From the NCBI GenBank assembly GCA_947646735.1, contig CANTFK010000943.1, forward strand, positions 434,001 through 498,000: a DNA stretch of 64,000 nucleotides, written 5' to 3'. Made by a program: the position numbers and the translations under genes. Below are positions 1-21,093 of this stretch, piece by piece (positions within the stretch are counted from its first letter, which is position 1; each line of letters opens with the position of its first letter). The notes below the pieces were generated by a model, which saw nothing but the letters and a program-made list of their open reading frames with translations, was not told the origin of the DNA and did no database searches. Origin of the DNA: Peronospora farinosa (lineage: Eukaryota > Oomycota > Peronosporomycetes > Peronosporales > Peronosporaceae).

Positions 1-587
1 ATGGGGAACCGTTCGTTGGTCTTTCCAGACCAACGATCAAGCAGATGCTTAGGTAGCATCCATGGCTTGCGATCAGGAGCAAGACGCAATACGTTACGGT
101 CTAAAGCCTCCTGCGTGGTGTCAACAGAAGTACCGACACTATGAGTATTGATGTCAGTATAGGTACTGACATCACCCTTACGGTCCCCACCCGAGTCACT
201 ATCCTTCGACTCGTTTGGTGAGTCGTCTGATTCATCAGACGACCCGAACATTTCACGGTACATTGATTCACTCAATGTACCACGATCCCTCTTCGTAGCA
301 TTAGACGACGAGGTATCACCCCGGGGAGAGCCCGGGAGTGGAATAGGTGACTTTGAGCCGGATGCGTCATCCGACTCACCAGAGTAGTCAACGACTAACT
401 CTGGGTCAACATCTTCACGTGGCGAAGCGCTACGTGAACCTGCAACAGGCGTTGCAGGCTGATGTTGACTTCCAGCAGACACTAATGTGTCTGCTGGCTG
501 AGGCTGTGAAGCCTCAGTAGCGGCTGCACACAGGCGTGCAGCCGAGCTCTTGGCTGCCTTAGCAGCGACGCGCATTGACTTTGTCAT
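1..587 (-). CDS. Gag-like protein of LTR retroelement, C-terminus beyond window
   Basis: An uninterrupted minus-strand frame starts at the ATG at 587-585, 98 nt after the LTR, and stays open for 195 codons to the window edge. The product starts MTKSMRVAAKAAKSSAARLC, is rich in Ala, Ser, Asp and Glu, has acidic Ser/Asp runs in the middle and becomes basic near the edge. I see no zinc knuckle or protease motif in the visible part. The call rests on position directly after an LTR on the same strand. The coding sequence is itself a string of short inverted repeats (for example 13-22/27-36, 150-159/164-173, 257-266/272-281, 472-482/487-497), so codon choice must satisfy pairing as well as coding. 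The exact family (Gypsy or Copia) cannot be decided here. Confidence 0.62.
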   Translation of the reverse strand, partial: MTKSMRVAAKAAKSSAARLCAAATEASQPQPADTLVSAGSQHQPATPVAGSRSASPREDVDPELVVDYSGESDDASGSKSPIPLPGSPRGDTSSSNATKRDRGTLSESMYREMFGSSDESDDSPNESKDSDSGGDRKGDVSTYTDINTHSVGTSVDTTQEALDRNVLRLAPDRKPWMLPKHLLDRWSGKTNERFP

Positions 588-684
588 AGCGAGAAAAATG
601 TTGGAATAAAAGAAAGCCCAACAAGTGCTCCTTTCCCATAGTCACTAAATAGTCACTAATGTGACTGTTGGTTGAGGGGGGTGA

Positions 685-1144
685 TGTAACGGGGTGAGCC
701 CGTTACATAATATTGACACTTATATGAAGTGTCAATAAAAATATTATTATAACTAATAATATTTGACAATATTACCTTTTCTAATAATATTGTTCCTAGA
801 TCTCCTTGAAGTTGGAGATGCCCTCTCATTGGTTGATATGGGCCATCATATCAACCAACGCGCTGACCAATGACCGATGGACGCGCGCAATGAGTGGAGG
901 GCAAGTCGTCAACATACATAGTTGTAGTTTAATATAGTTAACATAGGTTATAACAGATTAGTTTTATTAAGATAGTTAACTATATTAAATACAGTTTTCT
1001 TTTCCTCTACTTCTAAGCGTTTGTTTAGAAGTAAAGCTTCCTCTGCCTCTTGTGTAAGAGAGGTAATTGAGGCACCTGCTTTCACTGTAATCAGTGAAAG
1101 TAGACTATACTGTAATCAGTATAGTCGGAGGGTGCCCCATTACA
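685..1144 (-). repeat. Long terminal repeat, 460 bp
   Basis: Begins TGTAACGGGG and ends CCCCATTACA in plus-strand reading, so the ends form an imperfect 10-bp terminal inverted repeat. It is about 460 bp long and clearly homologous over its length to 20131-20589 (459 bp). Perfect stems inside it include 685-693/699-707, 711-721/727-737, 739-749/754-764, 829-840/847-858, 1079-1087/1092-1100 and 1103-1112/1117-1126. Several loops are the same four bases, TAAT. The minus-strand orientation is inferred from the adjacent gag-like frame. Confidence 0.82.
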
Positions 1145-2489
1145 CGTCTACAACTTCACATAAGTCTTTAGAAGAGTGCAACTCGCCAGCCGACGGGTAC
1201 ACAAGGTGAGAGAAGGTCCATACGCGGCATCGGGGTGCCCTCTCGACAGTCGGCAGTCTGCTGGAGCTCAATCAGGGTATCGTGTCGCGCGCATTTTAAG
1301 TAAGTTGGTTCACTCGAATACTGCCACTAATTGTGTGAGCTTGCAGTGCGTGTTATAACATTATGTGTTGACTTCTTGTTGATGTAAGTGTGGGGAAGTG
1401 ACTGTTTTGACGGTCTTCAGTTTGCTTACGACAAGATAGACGACCTAAACGATGCGCCTGACACCGTGTTTGGCTCGCTGATGGGGAATGCTAACGCGCA
1501 ACGTCAAGCGTCTCAACCAACAGCCATGCTTGATTTGTTACCAACGCACAGTGAGCGGTTTGAGGTCTCGTCATACAATTTTGAGAACCCACTCCACCAC
1601 AATGGCACTATGTGCGCTAGCATGGCGAGATGGAAGCCATCGTTCTAAGGAAGGTGAATGGCTGGTGCTTTTTCCAAGGCATTTGACACAAAGTTTCTTA
1701 GGTGTCGATTGCTGCTGTTTATTGTTGACAACGCTGCGTAAGTCGGCTTCCAGGGGATGGATTATGAGATCAGGTAGTTGGGAAAGGAGGTTCTAGATAG
1801 TGTCATCAGGTCGTTATGTGAAAGAGGGTATGGGAAGATGTGGTGGTGGCACCCGTTTGAATCGCTTCCGTTAATCGAGAAGTAGATTTGGGAATAGAAT
1901 GCTACTGCTATTAAGTCTTTAATCTCCTTTGAGATACTGAGGTGGAAAAACTTTTCAAAGTTGTAATATACAAAGCAACTTGTTCAATTAAGTCACGAAG
2001 CGAAATTTATTGTTGGTAGAATGATCATTCTTAAGAGGTTAATATTGTTGTGCGTGACGTGCACCAAGTAGTTGTTTGATGATTGCTTGCTTCGAGGCCG
2101 GACTACATTCTTGAGGCAGCTTGACCAGAAAGTTTGCGAATCACCTACTGATGAATCATACCATACTTATAGTATACCTTGTGAGAATTTGTACTTTTTC
2201 CATCGAATTTTATGATTTGGGCATAATTTTCCGATAAAATGCATATCTTTAGTTTAATCTTTTTTTAATGCCTTATTTTAGCAACTTTTCTTACACGTTA
2301 GCTCGTACGTTTCTGCAACATAACAATTCATCAATAAATGACCTTTTTTGTGTTTTAGCGTTTTATCAGCAATTTAATCACTTATCGACGAGCTTTATAA
2401 CTGCAAGAATTCTAACATAGTGACTATATGGTAGTCACCTCGTCCAACCAGAAAGAATATCTGTAAGTGTGGCACAAAATGTTCCAGCA
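1145..2489. other. AT-rich intergenic sequence, no gene recognised
   Basis: Short frames occur (for example 86 codons at 1388-1648) but none has a recognisable domain, and their stops and composition look random. The stretch from about 1860 to 2480 is AT-rich. A single 7-bp hairpin lies at about 2419-2438. The dense hairpins of the neighbouring retroelement do not continue past 1144. Confidence 0.6.
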
Positions 2490-2905
2490 ACTATCGTACA
2501 GCAGCACAAATAGCAGCACGAACAGGATCAGGTACAGCATACATTAGCATCCACCCTGCTCCATCATGACGCCCAGCCGCTTCTTGCGCACTCTTCGTGT
2601 TGTCAAATTTCGTGCTATGTAACAAACAGCATGCAATTCTGTCATTAGTCACTGCAACCAGCACACCCACATCGTCCATCATGTCATTAAAAAGCGGTTT
2701 TGATCCACGACTTCCGAATGAATACCATCACGAAAAAAGAATGCAACACCAGCGTCCGTAAAGCCTTACAACAAGAGCGCACGAAATGCGCAAGCGTTTT
2801 TGCCTACTACAATTCAGTTACTACCTTGCTTCAGCTGTGTGGCCTCCAGTGACAAGAGACTGATCTGCTCGTCGTTCTGCTCTTCTAGCAATCACGAAAT
2901 GTAAA
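2490..2905 (-). pseudogene. Decayed 3' part of a BET1-like SNARE gene
   Basis: The reverse complement matches the intact BET1-like gene at 5731-6210 at DNA level, including intron sequence, for example the run TTGCAGTGACTAATGA inside intron 3. That points to segmental duplication rather than retroposition. It holds the counterpart of exon 2 (EEQNDEQIS region), exon 3 (HSEVVDQNRF) and most of exon 4. The frame is broken by substitutions and small indels, and the C-terminal membrane anchor no longer reads through correctly. Exon 1 is absent, although a separate exon 1/2 fragment is present at 6878-6985. Confidence 0.75.
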
Positions 2906-3184
2906 AAAAGATCTTGGATGCAGGTGATTCAACACTTTGTCAATGCCTCAACATGATAACCTGCGTACTCCTCCGCTTTCAGTCGCACGCTGCGCTGCCT
3001 TCTGAAGCGTGCGCAGCAAGGAGAAGGCATCCCCCCTTTGTATCGACCTTACACATAAGTCCAAGAGGGCCGGGCCGACGGCTCTGCTGAGGGCGCTACC
3101 GCGTATCTTGTCGCACTTGACTGCCATTCGGGAAGTGTAGGGAGCATCCTCATACCATTAATACTATGATTTAATCCGAAAGAT

Positions 3185-3203
3185 TTGCTCACTTGTCTTC
3201 CCC
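3185..3203 (+). promoter_or_regulatory. Possible oomycete initiator of the PP2C gene
   Basis: The sequence TTGCTCACTTGTCTTCCCC about 50-60 nt upstream of the PP2C ATG resembles the oomycete initiator (GCTCATTYY-type core followed by a pyrimidine-rich or AT-rich flank). This is a consensus match by eye with one mismatch in the core. No transcript evidence is available. Confidence 0.3.
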
Positions 3204-3248
3204 TTCATAGTCCCGCAAAACAAGAAGACAGCCAAGCAGCAGCAAACT

Positions 3249-4380
3249 ATGGGCAACTTCCTTAGCACACCGATCACAACAAAGGACACGAAAGACGGGT
3301 TGGGAAATGGCCTCGAGTTTGGATTCGCCGGCATGCAGGGTTGGCGCAAAGAAATGGAGGACTCGTACGTGGCGAATCTGCAGCCAGCTGGGCTGCCCCC
3401 GAGCTGCTCGCTTTTCGCAGTGTTCGACGGACATGGCGGTCGTATGGCCGCTGACTTGGCCTCCGAGAAAGTTGCGGAACAGATGGCGAATATCATGAAG
3501 ACTGACGTGTTTCCTGCCGGACAAGCGGAGGATGCAGACCCGAACAAGATCGGTAAGGCCATGCGCGACGCCTTCATGAATTTGGATCAGAGAATTAGCG
3601 ATGTGTTCGAGAGAAATCCAAATCCAAGCGGCTGCACGGCCCTCGCTGCGCTCATCACGCCCACACACATTATCGTGGCCAACACGGGTGACTCGCGCTG
3701 TGTTATGGCCAAGGCTGGCCACACGGTCGCGATGTCCTTTGACCATAAACCTACTAATGTGAGAGAAAGGGTGCAACAAGGCGGAACCAAACACACGTCA
3801 TTCTTGGTGCTAATCGCTAACGTCTTTGTGGTGGTTACGTTACTGATTTTGTAGGTGGTAGAGCGCAAGCGAATCGAGAATGCAGGCGGGCATGTGACGA
3901 ATAGCCGCGTGAACGGAGATCTGTCAGTCTCGCGCGCTCTTGGAGACTTTCGTTATAAGTCATGCGCTACCTTGCCGGCTGAGCAGCAGCAGGTGTCTGC
4001 CGAGCCAGATATCGAAGTACACAAGATTGACAAAACGGAGGAGTTTTTGGTGCTCGCGTGTGACGGGATCTGGGATGTCATGAGCAACGACGAAGTTTGC
4101 GCTTACATCCGTCAGCTCATGAACAAAGGCGAGACGGACTTGAAGTTAATAGCGGAAGAGATCCTAGACAACTGTCTTCGGGCAGGAAGGTAAGGTTTGT
4201 ATTCTGTATTGATAACCTTGTTCTGTGCTGATATGTGTTGTGTTGTTGCGCTGCAGCCGTGATAATATGAGCGTTGTGATTGTCAAGTTTTCTGGCGCAA
4301 AGGTCGGTGAAGGCGGCGGTGTGGCTACAATCCGAGAGGAACGTGCACGCTTGGAACGTGCACGCTTGGAACAGCATTAA
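3249..4380 (+). CDS. PP2C-family Ser/Thr phosphatase (PPM)
   Basis: Three exons, 3249-3758, 3855-4189 and 4257-4380, with GT-AG introns, give a 322-residue metal-dependent protein phosphatase. Signature elements are all present: EDSY near residue 40, FAVFDGHGG (metal-binding Asp), NTGDSR, GDLSVSRALGDF, ACDGIWDV, and SRDNMSVVIVKF across the last splice junction. Met-Gly at the start (MGNFLSTP) fits N-myristoylation, suggesting membrane association; this is inference. PP2C enzymes dephosphorylate Ser/Thr residues using Mn/Mg. The C-terminus carries a 15-bp tandem duplication that repeats RARLE just before the stop. Length is typical of a minimal PP2C. The substrate cannot be predicted. The splice at HKPTN/VVERKRIENAGG restores the family sequence and was preferred to read-through. 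Confidence 0.9.
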
Positions 4381-4585
4381 CAAAACATATGTCATAAAGA
4401 TGGCGAAGTCGCAGAGGCTTCTTAGTTCGCACGAGACGAAGTAGATCCACATTTGCACGAATCCCACGCAGCATTTAAAAGCTATGCTTCTGCATATCCA
4501 CCTAGCTTCAGTGTTTTACGGCCCTTCGTCACTCGAAGAATGATAACCAATGAGACTTGCCAAAGTTTTCGCGTAGTACCCAAAC

Positions 4586-5368
4586 GTCGACAAGGTCGCT
4601 TTCACAAGTTCCACCGAGGTTGGCTACCAGATCATGCGCAAATCGCACGTAAACAATAGTAAGCGTGTAACGCATGAGCTAGGTGGTAAGTCAGCCAATA
4701 TTATCCTGGACGATGTCGACATCGACCTCGCCATCCAGCAGTCACAGCTTGGTCTGTTTCTAAACCAAGGTCAGTGCTGTATTGCCGGCACGCGCGTGTA
4801 CGTTCAAGAAGGCATTTACGACGAGTTCATGCGACGCTCGGTGGAGGCTGCTAGGTCTCGTATCGTGGGCGACCCGTTAGCTTCGCCACGGAGCAGGGAG
4901 CTCAGATCGATGAGAGTCAGTTCGAGAAGATCCTGGACTACAATGACAAGGGTGTGAAGGAGGGTGCTCGCCTGCTAACCGGTAGCAAGCGCCATGGTGA
5001 CAGGGCTGGTTCATTCATCCTACTGCATTCTTGGACGTAACGGACGACATGGTCATTTCTCGCGAGGAGATCTTTGGCCCTGTCATGGCTATTTTCAAAT
5101 TTAAGGCCATTGATGAAGCTATTGAGTGTGCTAATGATTCCGTTTATGGTATGGGTGCTGTGTTGTGACTAAGAGCATTGACAATGCAATCAAGATCTCC
5201 AACGGCATTCGAACGGGTACAGTGTATGTGAACTGCTACGACGTTTTTGATGCAAACACGCCGTTTGGTGGCTTCAAGGACTCAGGCATTGGTCGCGAGA
5301 ATGGAGAACTTAGCCTGTGCAGTTACTTGGAGTACAAGACTGTGATCATGAACGCCCGGACGACTTGA
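4586..5368 (+). pseudogene. Aldehyde dehydrogenase pseudogene, C-terminal half (left copy)
   Basis: Encodes the second half of an ALDH2-type enzyme in three different frames: [24 protein letters not shown], then the catalytic region [12 protein letters not shown], then EEIFGPVM, then GGFKDSGIGRENG to the C-terminus at 5366-5368. Single-base deletions break the frame near 4880, near 5005 and at about 5167, so no functional enzyme can be made. There is no N-terminal half. Family-like codons with a TAG continue a little upstream of 4586. Intact enzymes of this family oxidise aldehydes with NAD+. Identical lesions lie in the right copy at 7202-7984. Confidence 0.88.
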
Positions 5369-5633
5369 TGCCATAATATAGTCAAATGACTAACGGAACA
5401 ATAAGAGCTAATGCTATAAGCGATTACATGTTACTGTGTTGAAGTTGTCGCCGTGTGCGCCACATGAAAAGCCTGCAAAATGTCATACGCATGTCTTCAT
5501 ATAGTTTGGCCAATAAGGTACACTCTAACCTAATTACGTCGCCAGGTCTAAAATAGCAATAACGAGAATTCATGTACAACCGAATGTCGAACAGCAGATC
5601 CACGACGCGAGAATCCCTCTTCTCTGGTGCCTC
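4586..5633 (+). repeat. Left arm of 1.05-kb inverted repeat
   Basis: Nearly identical to the reverse complement of 6936-7984; matching coordinates sum to 12570 (12569 after a one-base indel in a run of G near 5545). The encoded ALDH fragments are identical on both arms, including the same frameshifts. The arm ends inside exon 1 of the BET1-like gene. Beyond 5633 weaker similarity resumes in exon 2, up to about 5766. Confidence 0.9.
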
Positions 5634-6210
5634 CTCTCGAGCGCAGGTAAGATCAAACTTGATTCAGGTCATGCGAGATGTTTTTCTGGGAATTCTCACT
5701 TGTATTGTTGATTGTAATGTAATCATGTAGAAGGGTAAGAATTTCGACAATGGAGAGCAGGCCAAACGATTGTTAGAAGAGCAAAACGACGAGCAGATCA
5801 GCCACTTGTCATTGCAAATCACACAGCTGAAACAAGTTAGTAGTAGAAAAAACGATTGCTGCTTTTCTTGCGCTCTTGTTGTATGGCCTTACTGACGCTG
5901 ATGTTGCATTTTTTTCTTACTGCAGCTATCAGGTAGTATTCATTCGGAAGTCGTGGACCAGAACCGCTTTCTTGATGGCATGGTGGGTGTTTTCTTTGTG
6001 TGATGTGTGTGTGCTAGTTGCAGTGACTAATGATAGAATTGCATGCTGTCCTAGAGCACGGAGTTTGACAACACGGAGGGTTTGTTGGGGGGCACGATGA
6101 AGCGCCTGGGCATTATGATGGAGCAGGGTGGAAGCAAACACATGTTGTATCTGATCCTGTTCGTCGTGCTGGTGTTCCTGCTGCTGTACTTTACTATCCG
6201 GTCTCATTAG
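5584..6210 (+). CDS. BET1: BET1-like Qc-SNARE
   Basis: Four exons, 5584-5646, 5731-5835, 5926-5982 and 6055-6210, all in phase 0, encode a 126-residue tail-anchored SNARE. After a short Ser-rich start the SNARE heptad region runs from about residue 33 to 95 (LLEEQNDEQISHLS, then HSEVVDQNRFLDGM, then FDNTEGLLGGTMKRLG). The last about 20 residues are a single membrane anchor (MLYLILFVVLVFLLLYF). Family proteins act in ER-Golgi vesicle fusion in a four-helix bundle with three partner SNAREs. Exon 1 lies in the left arm of the inverted repeat, and two broken copies of the gene flank it (2490-2905, 6878-6985), so this locus has been duplicated repeatedly. The intact frame and clean splice sites argue that this copy is the functional one. 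Confidence 0.85.
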
Positions 6211-6877
6211 TCACATTCTTTTTTATCGACAAAGGATACTACCAGGTAGTCACAATGTTAGAATGCGAGGAAAACATAAAAGAAGAGACTCAAAGTTAAA
6301 ATTGTAATTACTGGAATTGAACTATTCTCCCGGAGACGTAGACTCTTTTCAAATTTTGGCCATGTGCAAAATCTCTTGTTTCATTCATCTACCATAATGC
6401 AATCATTCTCTTCCTCGTTTTCTCGTTCGGCTGGCTCGATAGTTTAGACGTCGTGGGGGGCACACTTCCAATGACACATAAGTGGGTCCGTTAATCATGA
6501 CCGAGATTAGGAATGCACACACTTGACCGAACAGCTGGATTACACACGCGCTCAGAGAAGTCTGCTTCTAGAAGACAGGGGGACACATGGCCGGGAGTCC
6601 TGTACCACTAAAGTAATATAGCAGAGCATGGCACACCCACCATCATGACGTAATCCCTCGCCTTCGCGAGGTCGACTTGGTCTACTTTTCGGATGGAATG
6701 CAGGCTTCCAGATTCGTTTAGACACACCTCTGAACGCCACTGGACGAAAAGAGACTGGTCTGGTGCCTTCTCTACATAAAAAATCAGTCACTGTATCTCA
6801 ACAGAATTATCACGGTCTGGAGATAGTTAGTACCGGGCTTCGCGTTCTGCAAACTGGTCGACGGATTGGGGACAGAG
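6211..6877. other. Spacer within the inverted repeat, no gene recognised
   Basis: Short frames on both strands have no recognisable domain. Sequence from 6878 to 6935 already shows homology to BET1 intron 1/exon 2 on the minus strand. The rest is unexplained. Confidence 0.5.
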
Positions 6878-6985
6878 GTTTGGCCTGCTCTTCGATGTCG
6901 ACATTCTTTCCATTCTACACGATTCCATTACAATCGAGGCACCTGAGAAGAAGGATTCTCGCGTCGTGGATCTGCTGTTCGACAT
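6878..6985 (-). pseudogene. BET1 exon 1/exon 2 fragment
   Basis: Minus-strand homology starts at the ATG equivalent (6985), follows exon 1 up to about 6936, lacks most of intron 1 and resumes with the end of the intron and the first part of exon 2 (GAGCAGGCCAAAC) before stopping at 6878. It is the 5' counterpart of the 3' fragment at 2490-2905, but the two are 4 kb apart. Confidence 0.75.
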
Positions 6986-7984
6986 TCGGTTGTACATGAA
7001 TTCTCGTTATTGCTATTTTAGACCCTGGCGACGTAATTAGGTTAGAGTGTACCTTATTGGCCAAACTATATGAAGACATGCGTATGACATTTTGCAGGCT
7101 TTTCATGTGGCGCACACGGCGACAACTTCAACACAGTAACATGTAATCGCTTATAGCATTAGCTCTTATTGTTCCGTTAGTCATTTGACTATATTATGGC
7201 ATCAAGTCGTCCGGGCGTTCATGATCACAGTCTTGTACTCCAAGTAACTGCACAGGCTAAGTTCTCCATTCTCGCGACCAATGCCTGAGTCCTTGAAGCC
7301 ACCAAACGGCGTGTTTGCATCAAAAACGTCGTAGCAGTTCACATACACTGTACCCGTTCGAATGCCGTTGGAGATCTTGATTGCATTGTCAATGCTCTTA
7401 GTCACAACACAGCACCCATACCATAAACGGAATCATTAGCACACTCAATAGCTTCATCAATGGCCTTAAATTTGAAAATAGCCATGACAGGGCCAAAGAT
7501 CTCCTCGCGAGAAATGACCATGTCGTCCGTTACGTCCAAGAATGCAGTAGGATGAATGAACCAGCCCTGTCACCATGGCGCTTGCTACCGGTTAGCAGGC
7601 GAGCACCCTCCTTCACACCCTTGTCATTGTAGTCCAGGATCTTCTCGAACTGACTCTCATCGATCTGAGCTCCCTGCTCCGTGGCGAAGCTAACGGGTCG
7701 CCCACGATACGAGACCTAGCAGCCTCCACCGAGCGTCGCATGAACTCGTCGTAAATGCCTTCTTGAACGTACACGCGCGTGCCGGCAATACAGCACTGAC
7801 CTTGGTTTAGAAACAGACCAAGCTGTGACTGCTGGATGGCGAGGTCGATGTCGACATCGTCCAGGATAATATTGGCTGACTTACCACCTAGCTCATGCGT
7901 TACACGCTTACTATTGTTTACGTGCGATTTGCGCATGATCTGGTAGCCAACCTCGGTGGAACTTGTGAAAGCGACCTTGTCGAC
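6936..7984 (-). repeat. Right arm of 1.05-kb inverted repeat
   Basis: Reverse complement of 4586-5633, with an interarm spacer of about 1.3 kb (5634-6935). See the left arm for alignment details. The arms could form a large cruciform or hairpin, and their near-identity implies recent duplication, gene conversion, or an assembly duplication. Confidence 0.9.
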
Positions 7985-8530
7985 ATTCGGGTGCTGCGCG
8001 AGGTAAGGGCCAGCCGCACCTGGTACAATGTTGACCACACCCTTAGGGAATTTTAGCCTCCACAATGAGTTCACCGACGCGCAGACAGGACGACCAAACG
8101 AATAAACTGTGTTCAAGCGCAGACAATAACACTCAGACACTGGCGTGGTCTTGTGAAGAGCGTCGGTGGTATCAGCAGGTTTCAGTACAATGGAGAGCGG
8201 GGCCCAACTTTTACGATATCATCAACAACGAAAAGTTCCACGAAATAATTTGCGCGCACACATCGACAGGCTCGAACTTGTTATAGCACAGGTAAGGAAG
8301 GTCCTGAGATCGGGATAACAGGGCCATGCATTTTGTCGGGCCATCCAGCATAGTAACGGTAAGTCTTGAGCACGGAGGCCGAAGTCGGCACCCTTGGCCT
8401 CAGCACATGGCTTGCCATTATCGAGGGCCTCAAGAGCAGCCAGCTCATCGATGTTCTCCTCGATGAGGTCTGCGAGCTTGTTGAAAAGACGTCCACGGTC
8501 CGCAGGCAAGGTGCGGCACGCTGTTATCGG
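7202..8530 (-). pseudogene. Aldehyde dehydrogenase pseudogene, main body (right copy)
   Basis: On the minus strand from 8530 the frame reads [20 protein letters not shown], the LRYYAGW-type segment (here [14 protein letters not shown]), [17 protein letters not shown] with in-frame stops just after, [18 protein letters not shown], then the same C-terminal half and frameshifts as the left copy, ending at 7202. At least three frameshifts and two stop codons disable it. The segment between LKPADTT and GELIVEA is longer than in the family and may be a former intron. Its N-terminal exon is not upstream on the same strand but inverted at 8621-8907. The family is mitochondrial/cytosolic ALDH (catalytic Cys in GQCCIAG). 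Confidence 0.87.
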
Positions 8531-8620
8531 CCGAATCCTGTTTATTTTTCAATTTGCATCCTTATCGACATCTCGCCAGCTCCAGCAGCAGTCCTCGCAC
8601 CCTTTTTCATGCAGCACCAA

Positions 8621-19505: not shown

Positions 19506-21093
19506 TTAACACCGTACACTACACGTCGAAAGGCGTAAACGAAGGTGGTCGTCATCAGCAGTCCAGGGGCGAAATGCAAGAGCTACTGTCTTGGCAACAT
19601 TAAGCCGCATTCCCGTAGCGGCGCGGAAATCGTGGATACGAGCGAGAAAAGCTGGAGTATGGTAAAGATTGTTGATAAAGCCAGTGACATCATCAGCAAA
19701 GCTAAGCAGATGGTGTGACGTCCCGAAGTTTGATAGCAAAACCGTCATTAACTGCGCGAATATAACACAATAGCGGTTCTACGAAGAGCACAAAAAGACC
19801 AGGAGAAAGAGGGAGGATCACCTTGCCAAACCCCAGCTCCCAAACAAAAAAGTCCGACCGAGAGTTGTTAATCACAATCTGCACCATTGTTCTCTTGAAA
19901 AGGGTACGAACCCAATGCCGAAAATTCGCCTTAAAAACCTCAGTGTAAAAGAACTTTGTCAAGTGCCTGCCAGTTAACATTGTCAAATGCCTTAGCAAAA
20001 TCTAGGCAAATGGCAACGGCAGGATCACGAAAGGGTGTACGTTTGCAGAGATCCTGCAAGTCTAAGAAGTATCGAAGAGCGTGGCGAATTTCTCGACTAG
20101 AAACAAAACCAAATTGGTCCACACCGAGTATGTAACGGGGTAAGCTAGTTACATAATACTGACACTTATATGAAGTGTCAATAAAAATATTATTATTACT
20201 AATAATATTTGACAATATTATCTTTTCTTATAATATCGTCATCGCATCTCCTTGAAGTTGGAGATGCCCTCTAATTGGTTGATTGGGCCATTATATCAAC
20301 CAAGGCGCTGACCAATGACCAATGGACGCGCGCAATGAATGAAGGGCACGAAGGTAGCATACATTTGTATAATTTAATATAGTTAAGACAAGGTTATTAA
20401 TGATTTAGTTTTGTTACATAGTTTAACTTATTAAATACAGTTCTCTTTTCCTCTACTTCTAGCGTGTCATTTAGAAGTTAAACTTCCTCTACCTCTTGTG
20501 TAAGAGAGATTTTGAGGCACCTGTTTTCACTGTCATCATTGAAAGTAGACTATACTGTTATCAGTATAGTTGGAGAGTGCCCCATTACACATTAGGGAGG
20601 CAAAACATAATTAAGACGATAAGCCAGAGCCTTGGGTCCAAGCTTGACATCTTGGATTAGTAAGACCAATGGACGAAAATTTTAGGATCTGAACGAGAAC
20701 CTCTATTAAAAAAAGCGAGAGGTAGGCACGGCGTTGGAACTTCGACATACGTCGCTTCCGAAATTGGGCAGCATAAACAAGTTTCAGTACCATATCCTAC
20801 TGGCGGGGGAAAAGTTGGTAATTTTTCAGCCGGCAAGCCATCGGACCCGGCGATCTCCTACGAGCAGTGTGTTTGATGGCGTGATAAAATTCGTTGGAAG
20901 TCATATGGGCATCAATCATGGCTGAGTGGGACGATGACAGCCTCCGGACGCTGTGGCTCAAAATTGACTTGAGTTTGGTTGGGTCAAATAGTACAGGTTT
21001 CACTGAGAGATCCCGGGAATCTGATTGACAAAGCTTCCCCCAGTAAGCACTATGCGTGGCCTTAATAATGTGAGGGTCCTTATGGTGTGTCAA
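19506..21093 (-). pseudogene. LINE reverse transcriptase, interrupted by a solo LTR
   Basis: Fragments in order are: RRRSPGPMACRLKNYQLFP; DVKLGPKALAYRLNYVLP just before the LTR; GVDQFGFVSSREIRHALRYF just after it; AICLDFAKAFDNVNW with the first catalytic Asp; LPLSPGLFVLFVEPLL; and FADDVTGF carrying the second and third catalytic Asp residues. Several frameshifts and stops separate the blocks. The LTR at 20131-20589 splits the domain between LPP and LGVDQ. Confidence 0.85.
20131..20589 (-). repeat. Solo LTR of the hairpin-array retroelement
   Basis: 459 bp, homologous end to end with 685-1144 and in the same orientation: begins TGTAACGGGG, ends CCCCATTACA. No internal retroelement sequence is attached, so it is a solo LTR left by recombination. 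The flanks do not give a clean 5-bp duplication. Most stems survive relative to the other copy while loops differ (TAAT to TTAT, TAAC to TTAC, TAAT to TCAT). Confidence 0.85.

Follow-up and report, generated by a model that had tools for sequence, protein, structure and literature searches.

The first 1,144 bases of the window, by which we mean the whole 64,000-nucleotide stretch of Peronospora farinosa DNA analysed here (C248:434001-498000), belong to a Ty3/Gypsy chromovirus of 8.1 kb and form its 3' end. This LTR retrotransposon carries a perfect short inverted repeat about every 70 bases over its whole 8 kb, genes included. Each strand of the element is predicted to form a chain of small hairpins, and comparison of the copies found in the genome (46.85 Mb searched, 274 contigs) suggests that this folding is kept up by selection acting on the replicating element.

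The whole element begins 6.9 kb to the left of the window (L009 2056, corresponding to contig position C248:427056), and two near-identical LTRs flank it, with their outer ends 8.1 kb apart. The features of the element in and near the window, together with a second trace of its family (fam1), are:

L009 2056-2516 (from C248:427056): 5' LTR, 99.4% identical to the 3' LTR over 465 bp
Window 3-587, minus strand: N-terminal 195 codons of an antisense ORF, which continues to the left of the window
Window 674-684, plus strand: purine-rich tract resembling a polypurine tract, adjoining the 3' LTR, its function suggested by its position
Window 685-1144, plus strand: 3' LTR of 460 bp, TGTAAC...TTACA, its ends read from the sequence
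Window 20131-20589, plus strand: decayed solo LTR of fam1, the family of the window element, recognised by by-eye comparison with window 685-1144

The coding sequence at 3-587, which the first-pass annotation had described as gag-like, thus belongs to an antisense ORF located close to the 3' LTR; gag-pol lies on the plus strand in the order Gag, protease, RT, RNase H, integrase, chromodomain; the purine-rich tract at 674-684 is in line with plus as the gag-pol sense strand. Along the copy L018, PF03732, PF08284, PF00078, PF17917 and PF17921 follow one another in Gypsy order above the Pfam cut-off, and a chromodomain (PF00385, E = 1e-13) lies at the C-terminus. The integrase core (rve) scores below the cut-off of 32.6 bits in L018 (18.7 bits) and above it in the copy L011 on contig C42 (43.9 bits), and Gag has a CCHC-type sequence (zinc knuckle) that scores below the Pfam cut-off. 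As to a target-site duplication, the bases flanking L018, TCGCT on the left and CCGCT on the right, match at four of five positions, and the window copy has CGTCT to the right of its LTR, with the identical five bases 11 bp before the 5' LTR. The best named match of the pol protein is 99% identical and comes from Peronospora effusa; among the best 120 of 2137 matches, Peronospora matthiolae reaches 79%, and Globisporangium and Phytophthora about 59-70%.

All 16 inverted repeats that had been named in the first 1,144 bases are present, and their density is well beyond chance, as had been claimed. With loops of 3-10 nt allowed, positions 1-1144 contain 14 perfect stems that reach 9 bp or more, whereas 100 dinucleotide shuffles average 0.04 and never exceed 1; at a minimum length of 8 bp the count is 16, against 0.12. 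For this stretch we compared 25 copies, out of 40 long matches listed, and dropped stem families present in fewer than three of them; the stems, followed outside the LTR by the number of copies in which each keeps at least 8 perfect bp, are:

13-36: perfect, 10 bp, loop of 4 nt; 24 of 25 copies
149-174: perfect, 11 bp, loop of 4 nt; 24 of 25 copies
222-243: 10 bp with a loop of 2 nt (or 9 bp with a loop of 4 nt); 22 of 25 copies
257-281: perfect, 10 bp, loop of 5 nt; 22 of 25 copies
439-458: perfect, 8 bp, loop of 4 nt; 24 of 25 copies
472-497: perfect, 11 bp, loop of 4 nt; 23 of 25 copies
498-517: perfect, 8 bp, loop of 4 nt; 23 of 25 copies
521-544: perfect, 9 bp, loop of 6 nt; 24 of 25 copies
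599-624: in the gap that separates antisense ORF and LTR; a 9-bp stem in the majority of copies (21 of 25), not in the perfect-stem list of the window copy
648-669: 9 bp in most copies (22 of 25); the window copy has 6 perfect bp here, at 651-666
684-708 (beginning one base before the LTR), 711-737, 739-764 and 766-793: perfect stems of the LTR
829-858, 1008-1033, 1079-1100 and 1103-1126: further perfect stems of the LTR

Of the 19 stem families in this stretch, 17 are perfect over at least 8 bp in 21-24 of the 25 copies, and the other two in 4 and 11; since these copies lie on many contigs, an assembly artefact is ruled out. The chain does end at the right LTR border (1144), as the first-pass annotation had it, but it does not start at base 1, because stems fill the whole element. 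The full-length copy L011 (8,177 bp) holds 101 perfect stems of at least 8 bp against 0.9 in shuffles and 115 of at least 7 bp against 3.5, and the copy L018 holds 87 and 102, respectively. Perfect stems of 7, 8, 9, 10, 11 and 12 bp number 14, 32, 33, 22, 9 and 5 in L011, with a peak at 8-10 bp and none longer than 12 bp, and this copy also carries 35 perfect stems of 6 bp; interrupted helices do exceed 12 bp, reaching 13 pairs plus one mismatch among those listed. Two finer points of the first description do not hold: the stems are spaced irregularly (coefficient of variation 0.80) instead of every 30-60 bp, and TAAT, reported as a frequent loop, closes only five of the 40 four-base-loop stems of a whole copy, four of these five in the LTRs. 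TAAT is nevertheless the commonest tetraloop there, with GNRA counted three times and UNCG once; no loop motif is common to the stems, which speaks against a recognition loop.

Predicted folding changes abruptly at the borders of the element. On the right, 200-nt segments inside the element have folding z-scores of -5.8 to -12.5, the border itself gives -1.9, and the segments outside range from -1.9 to 0.7; at the left LTR border the z-score is -1.2 to 3.0 outside and -2.5 to -9.2 inside. The rest of the window is at chance, with two stems against 3.5 expected between 24 and 64 kb and three against 2.8 between 3 and 20 kb, and the sole other cluster (four stems in 20-21 kb) is explained by the decayed solo LTR at 20131-20589, which belongs to the same family.

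The stems are not a by-product of the encoded proteins. When synonymous codons were swapped so that protein and codon usage were preserved, stems of at least 8 bp fell from 18 to 0.58 in gag, from 36 to 0.74 in pol and from 27 to 0.72 in the antisense ORF; over gag, pol, the pol C-terminus and the antisense ORF, each reading frame holds 13-36 stems against 0.3-0.7 in codon shuffles. Coding constraint is thereby ruled out as their cause, by folding energies as well as by stem counts. The first-pass annotation was right that this is an LTR retroelement and that its coding sequence is at the same time a hairpin string. In the RT-integrase core, codons within stems are less conserved in protein (mean identity 0.56 against 0.71 elsewhere, 118 homologues), and the pairing phase that sets wobble opposite wobble positions is rare in pol (5 of 36 stems); in the remaining frames of the element this wobble-phase bias is less marked or lacking (4/18, 3/13, 11/27). 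The stems thus seem to be placed where the protein sequence permits.

Predicted folding energies agree with the stem counts. L011 exceeds its dinucleotide shuffles by 49.5% on the sense and 49.4% on the antisense strand, with z below -2 in 80 of 80 segments on each strand; cut into 350-nt fragments the excess is 48.3%, and all 45 fragments show it. Against codon shuffles the excess is 41.5% for gag, 42.3% for pol and 39.2% for the antisense ORF. The corresponding values for two host genes are 4.1% (dinucleotide) and 1.6% (codon shuffles) for EF2 and -1.7% and -0.2% for FAS, and three Copia pieces of the same genome give 1.2, 9.4 and -0.1% against dinucleotide shuffles, with only one or two stems of at least 8 bp against 0.3-0.6 in shuffles. 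Chance and base composition are thus ruled out by the shuffle controls, and a genome-wide or retroelement-wide property is ruled out for the two host genes and two of the three Copia pieces, the third standing at 9.4%. Predicted accessibility is reduced in L011 relative to its own shuffles (8-mers with more than 10% open probability: 6.0 against 14.4% sense, 7.1 against 14.5% antisense). In absolute terms, L011 is hardly less open than host genes (FAS 7.8%, EF2 9.3%), and the mean open probability is 0.031-0.033 in L011, FAS and EF2 alike.

The test for selection drew on 30 copies of the RT region (L019-L048), a part of pol (L011 1730-5278) that the antisense ORF does not reach, and on the 36 stem families present in 19-30 of these copies, 14 others found in one or two copies being dropped. 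Variants in a single copy were taken as mostly post-insertion, and variants in at least three copies as passed on through replication. Shared third-position variants occupy 4 of 226 sites in stems, 11 of 58 in loops and 46 of 891 in spacers, a depletion in stems relative to loops and spacers (Fisher, p = 0.007) and to spacers alone (p = 0.029), whereas singletons (69 of 226, 18 of 58 and 214 of 891 sites) affect stems, if anything, slightly more (p = 0.049). The folding cost shows the same pattern on both strands: shared third-position variants (n = 62) cost 0.55 kcal sense and 0.51 antisense, and singletons (n = 338) 1.50 and 1.48 (p about 1e-4 per strand), a difference that holds when stratified by mutation type (p = 2e-4). 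In the same 30 copies, first and second codon positions, as well as transitions pooled over all positions, showed no difference between shared and single variants. Since shared third-position variants avoid stems and singletons do not, we take the pattern as a sign of selection on folding. In the window stretch, the 25 copies hold few shared variants (LTR stems 3/166, spacers 3/252; antisense-ORF stems 2/183, spacers 11/366).

Covariation gives a different picture. Compensatory changes between copies, suggested as a check on the hairpins, are not in excess within the family, where eight pair cells are compensated and 14 are not. Gypsy relatives of fam1 with an RT identity of 66-70% are present in the same genome, and the strongest of these, L056, which belongs to a large family of at least 150 matches, has an energy excess of 30.6% sense, 35.3% antisense and 27.8% over codon shuffles. 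Perfect stems of at least 7 bp with short loops are less numerous in it: 2.6 kb of L056 hold 6 and the adjoining upstream 2.7 kb hold 13, while 2.6 kb of fam1 hold 28. Its relatives L080 (90% identical by BLAST) and L079 show an excess of 21-24% and 12-17%, respectively. L049 and L051 carry 17 and 16 stems of at least 8 bp against about one in shuffles, and their energy excess of 8-14% is barely above that of the one Copia piece at 9.4%. By reading, six of 60 stem centres are common across families (278.5, 533, 987, 2218, 2413.5 and 2550); three of these (987, 2218 and 2413.5, the last over the integrase HPETDGQT motif) have compensated pairs between families, and the stem at 533 is extended. 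Overall, pairing is kept in 29/71, 56/141, 61/149 and 65/150 double changes between families (40-43%), where random expectation, reckoned by hand, is about 4/9; between L056 and L080 it is kept in 3/4 and 2/5, based on very few changes. The test for one defined structure is accordingly negative overall, both within fam1 and between families. As predicted pairs are not conserved between families beyond chance, the property under selection looks like folding itself, as proposed for GORS, rather than one fixed structure.

The two strands are hard to tell apart in these data. Predicted energy and constraint are equal on both, and G-U pairs make up only 4-6% of the predicted pairs on each strand of L011 and L056, compared with 10% in L049 and 14-17% in the two host genes. 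Mismatches inside L011 stems, read on the gag-pol strand, are more often A-C (17) than G-T (6; p = 0.035), which is the reverse of what selection on the sense RNA predicts; stem-breaking shared variants lean the opposite way (seven G-T against three A-C, not significant). The simplest reading, though not proven, is that both strands are required to fold.

A candidate source of a second RNA strand is the antisense ORF, which lies between pol and the 3' LTR, spans 590 aa in L011 (5902-7674) and shares about 0.7 kb with the 3' end of pol. Its protein has 49 matches, most of them 37-50% identical; every named source is Peronospora or Hyaloperonospora, and the single match without a source perhaps comes from the Peronospora farinosa genome itself. 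The protein gave no Pfam match at E <= 0.01, and its predicted structure (mean pLDDT 58) had no match in a PDB search at E <= 0.001; a long C-terminal helix (509-570) is predicted in the protein (P0121). L056 also has a long antisense ORF (518 aa) across the pol 3' end, so that fam1 and L056, the two strongest folders, both carry one, and the weak folder L049 has antisense ORFs at the pol 3' end as well. The similarity between the fam1 and L049 antisense ORFs (E 0.006, probability 6%) is only suggestive of homology.

Our favoured interpretation, offered tentatively, is that the hairpin folding, which selection appears to keep on both strands, protects the complementary RNAs of the element from mutual pairing and from host silencing. 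Transcription of the element would yield genomic RNA in sense and an mRNA in antisense orientation; annealed to each other, the two would form long dsRNA, a substrate for Dicer. Should the strands each collapse into perfect stems no longer than 12 bp, annealing would be slowed, as each would fold on itself faster than it meets its partner; the stems themselves would stay below the length that Dicer needs, perfect stems of at most 12 bp being too short for this enzyme. Less single-stranded target would be open to the RNA-dependent RNA polymerase of the host and to its Argonaute-siRNA complexes, and protein synthesis would still be possible from the folded RNA. Watson-Crick pairs would be preferred over G-U pairs, because wherever one strand pairs G with U, the other is left with an A-C mismatch. 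The genome encodes RNAi-type genes with which such RNAs could interact, namely one RdRP locus, four Piwi-domain loci and two frames with paired RNase III domains. With somewhat less assurance still, we consider that two-strand chains of Watson-Crick hairpins below Dicer length may be the armour of a clade of LTR retrotransposons against dsRNA, letting an antisense gene persist despite silencing. Among the four roles that the first-pass annotation had offered, a block to RNA silencing fits best, by way of a step from folding to silencing avoidance that we infer. Two results constrain the model: host genes are about as closed as the element, which weakens the step of less single-stranded target, so that the speed of strand pairing, rather than the closing of single sites, may be what matters; and the selection test was performed in pol outside the antisense ORF, so that long antisense transcripts would be needed. 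Furthermore, a maize study reports that such structures correlate with small RNAs (PMC10760457), a correlation that may run against shielding.

A rather unlikely explanation is that only the sense RNA is selected to fold, in the manner of GORS, and that the antisense strand folds merely through the symmetry of Watson-Crick stems. Coronaviruses show genome-wide folding without conserved positions (PMC7642675), on the sense strand the variants that break stems in several copies tend towards G-T, and an antisense transcript in pol would not be required. The equal energies and constraint on both strands, the excess of A-C over G-T mismatches on the sense strand and the rarity of G-U pairs all speak against it, yet none of these is decisive, because stems of high stability would likewise contain little G-U. 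The two-strand symmetry across pol would also be accounted for, again with no need for antisense RNA, if the stems served the minus-strand or double-stranded cDNA, for example in compaction or by blocking annealing to other copies. This we regard as improbable, as no precedent was found and reverse transcriptase would need to read through the same stems.

It is only marginally less improbable that the stems are functionless products of fold-back mutation, in which the growing strand copies itself during reverse transcription and turns near-palindromes into perfect short-loop palindromes. Such a process would yield what is seen, namely perfect Watson-Crick stems with short loops, strand symmetry and limited tract length. 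In 21 stems (raw values), the arms of fam1 diverge more unequally than the background relative to L049 (2.29 against 1.80) and L051 (2.48 against 1.71), and show no asymmetry relative to L056 (1.70 against 1.83); the arm test thus gives slight support to fold-back copying as the source of stems in the comparisons with L049 and L051, but not in that with L056. However, a fold-back hotspot would be expected to leave stems free of constraint, and third-position variants avoid stems only if shared among copies, which disfavours the mutational process of the first-pass annotation as the sole origin. In addition, the predicted folding of L056 is strong (28-35%) on a smaller number of perfect short-loop stems, and Copia pieces of the same genome have few stems. 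A mutational process may still be the way in which stems first arise, and fold-back copying could act together with selection. Least probable of all, and very unlikely in our view, is packaging by nucleocapsid binding, in which Gag would bind dispersed hairpins singly and condense the genome. The CCHC-type sequence of Gag, albeit below the Pfam cut-off, and the presence of hairpins along the whole genome of the element are in its favour; the lack of a shared loop motif, which disfavours the packaging role proposed earlier insofar as it involves a recognised loop, the irregular spacing and the equally strong predicted folding of the antisense strand are against it.

Protection of complementary RNAs by two-strand folding, the reading favoured here, has partial counterparts in known systems. 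Genome-wide RNA folding has been linked to the persistence of RNA viruses, with a cause that is hard to isolate (PMC7642675). As in GORS viruses described there, the folding energy is above shuffles throughout the genome, coding sequence included, the pairing positions are poorly conserved among relatives, and stem-loops are chained, several hundred consecutively in coronavirus genomes. The difference is that the host element here is an LTR retrotransposon, GORS-like in working and not a virus, whose folding is equal on both strands and built largely from perfect 8-12 bp stems. The excess in 350-nt fragments (48%) also compares with about 15% for SARS-CoV-2, 7.5-10.7% for HCV and 23.4% for the highest vertebrate RNA virus given in PMC7642675, about twice this highest value, where the shuffling program is related to ours, not identical. 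For RNAs of Qbeta replicase, which follow a 'fewer unpaired GC' rule, internal structure has been proposed to prevent dsRNA between template and complement (PMC6913131); those RNAs are copied by an RNA replicase, whereas the complementary strands here would be the LTR transcript and the antisense mRNA. The extra ORF resembles in position, orientation and lack of a known domain that of the aORF-3R retrotransposons Grande, RIRE2 and Retand (PMC7264820), which are found in plant hosts and not, as here, in an oomycete. According to PMC7264820, the antisense transcript of the plant elements may yield dsRNA and siRNA, and the part of that review on which we draw does not mention a hairpin string.

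None of the listed open-licence papers describes, by title or opening of the abstract, a hairpin-string or GORS-like LTR retrotransposon, which does not imply absence from print. What is new here is GORS-like folding in a new class of replicon, predicted to be strand-symmetrical. The multi-copy element shares one nucleus with Gypsy and Copia families whose folding ranges from strong to weak, and with RdRP, Piwi and paired-RNase-III genes, so that a sparing of folded families by small RNAs is directly testable. A protein-coding genome would here stand under a second, strand-symmetrical code, for which annotation, phylogeny and selection tests on such elements would have to account. Against the oomycete Ty3/Gypsy chromoviruses, known here by protein matches only, fam1 has the same set of domains from Gag to chromodomain and may be set apart by its hairpin string and antisense ORF. 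Scans of viral contigs with the pol protein and with alignment A1 found no relatives in other species at the DNA level, and a scan of genome contigs recovered a single Ty3-like sequence, L076, filed under a bacterial MAG, with an energy excess of 7.5% over the matched part.

The downy-mildew chromovirus carries a conserved ORF antisense to its gag-pol, found in L011 (a whole copy of the element) and, as its N-terminal 195 codons, in the window:

L011 5902-7674; window 3-587, (-) strand: conserved antisense ORF, about 590 aa.

The predicted structure of the encoded protein combines a low-confidence N-terminal half with a helical core and a long C-terminal helix. Automatic annotation gives two relatives the labels core-binding domain and RxLR candidate, which look like misannotations of a retroelement protein. 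The 3' stretch of the chromovirus measures 1144 bp in the window (1-1144) versus approximately 1175 bp in many of the further copies (L060-L075), a difference that, judged by eye, corresponds to a short direct duplication within the antisense ORF rather than to a hairpin.

A decayed solo LTR of the family lies at window 20131-20589, surrounded by other repeat-like sequence, and in two copies inverted LTR pieces (L011 8176-8467 and L016 1551-2002) adjoin the 3' LTR or lie at most ~34 bp away. In another Gypsy family of the same genome (L049), the protease and RT of pol are separated by a region with peptide repeats of the VVEPGFPSSPTVVEPRFPHG type arranged in tandem (L049 1692-2303). Furthermore, a contig assigned to a Phycisphaerae MAG (L076), perhaps eukaryotic contamination, encodes a Ty3-like RT within a frame of 2843 aa (45-8576).
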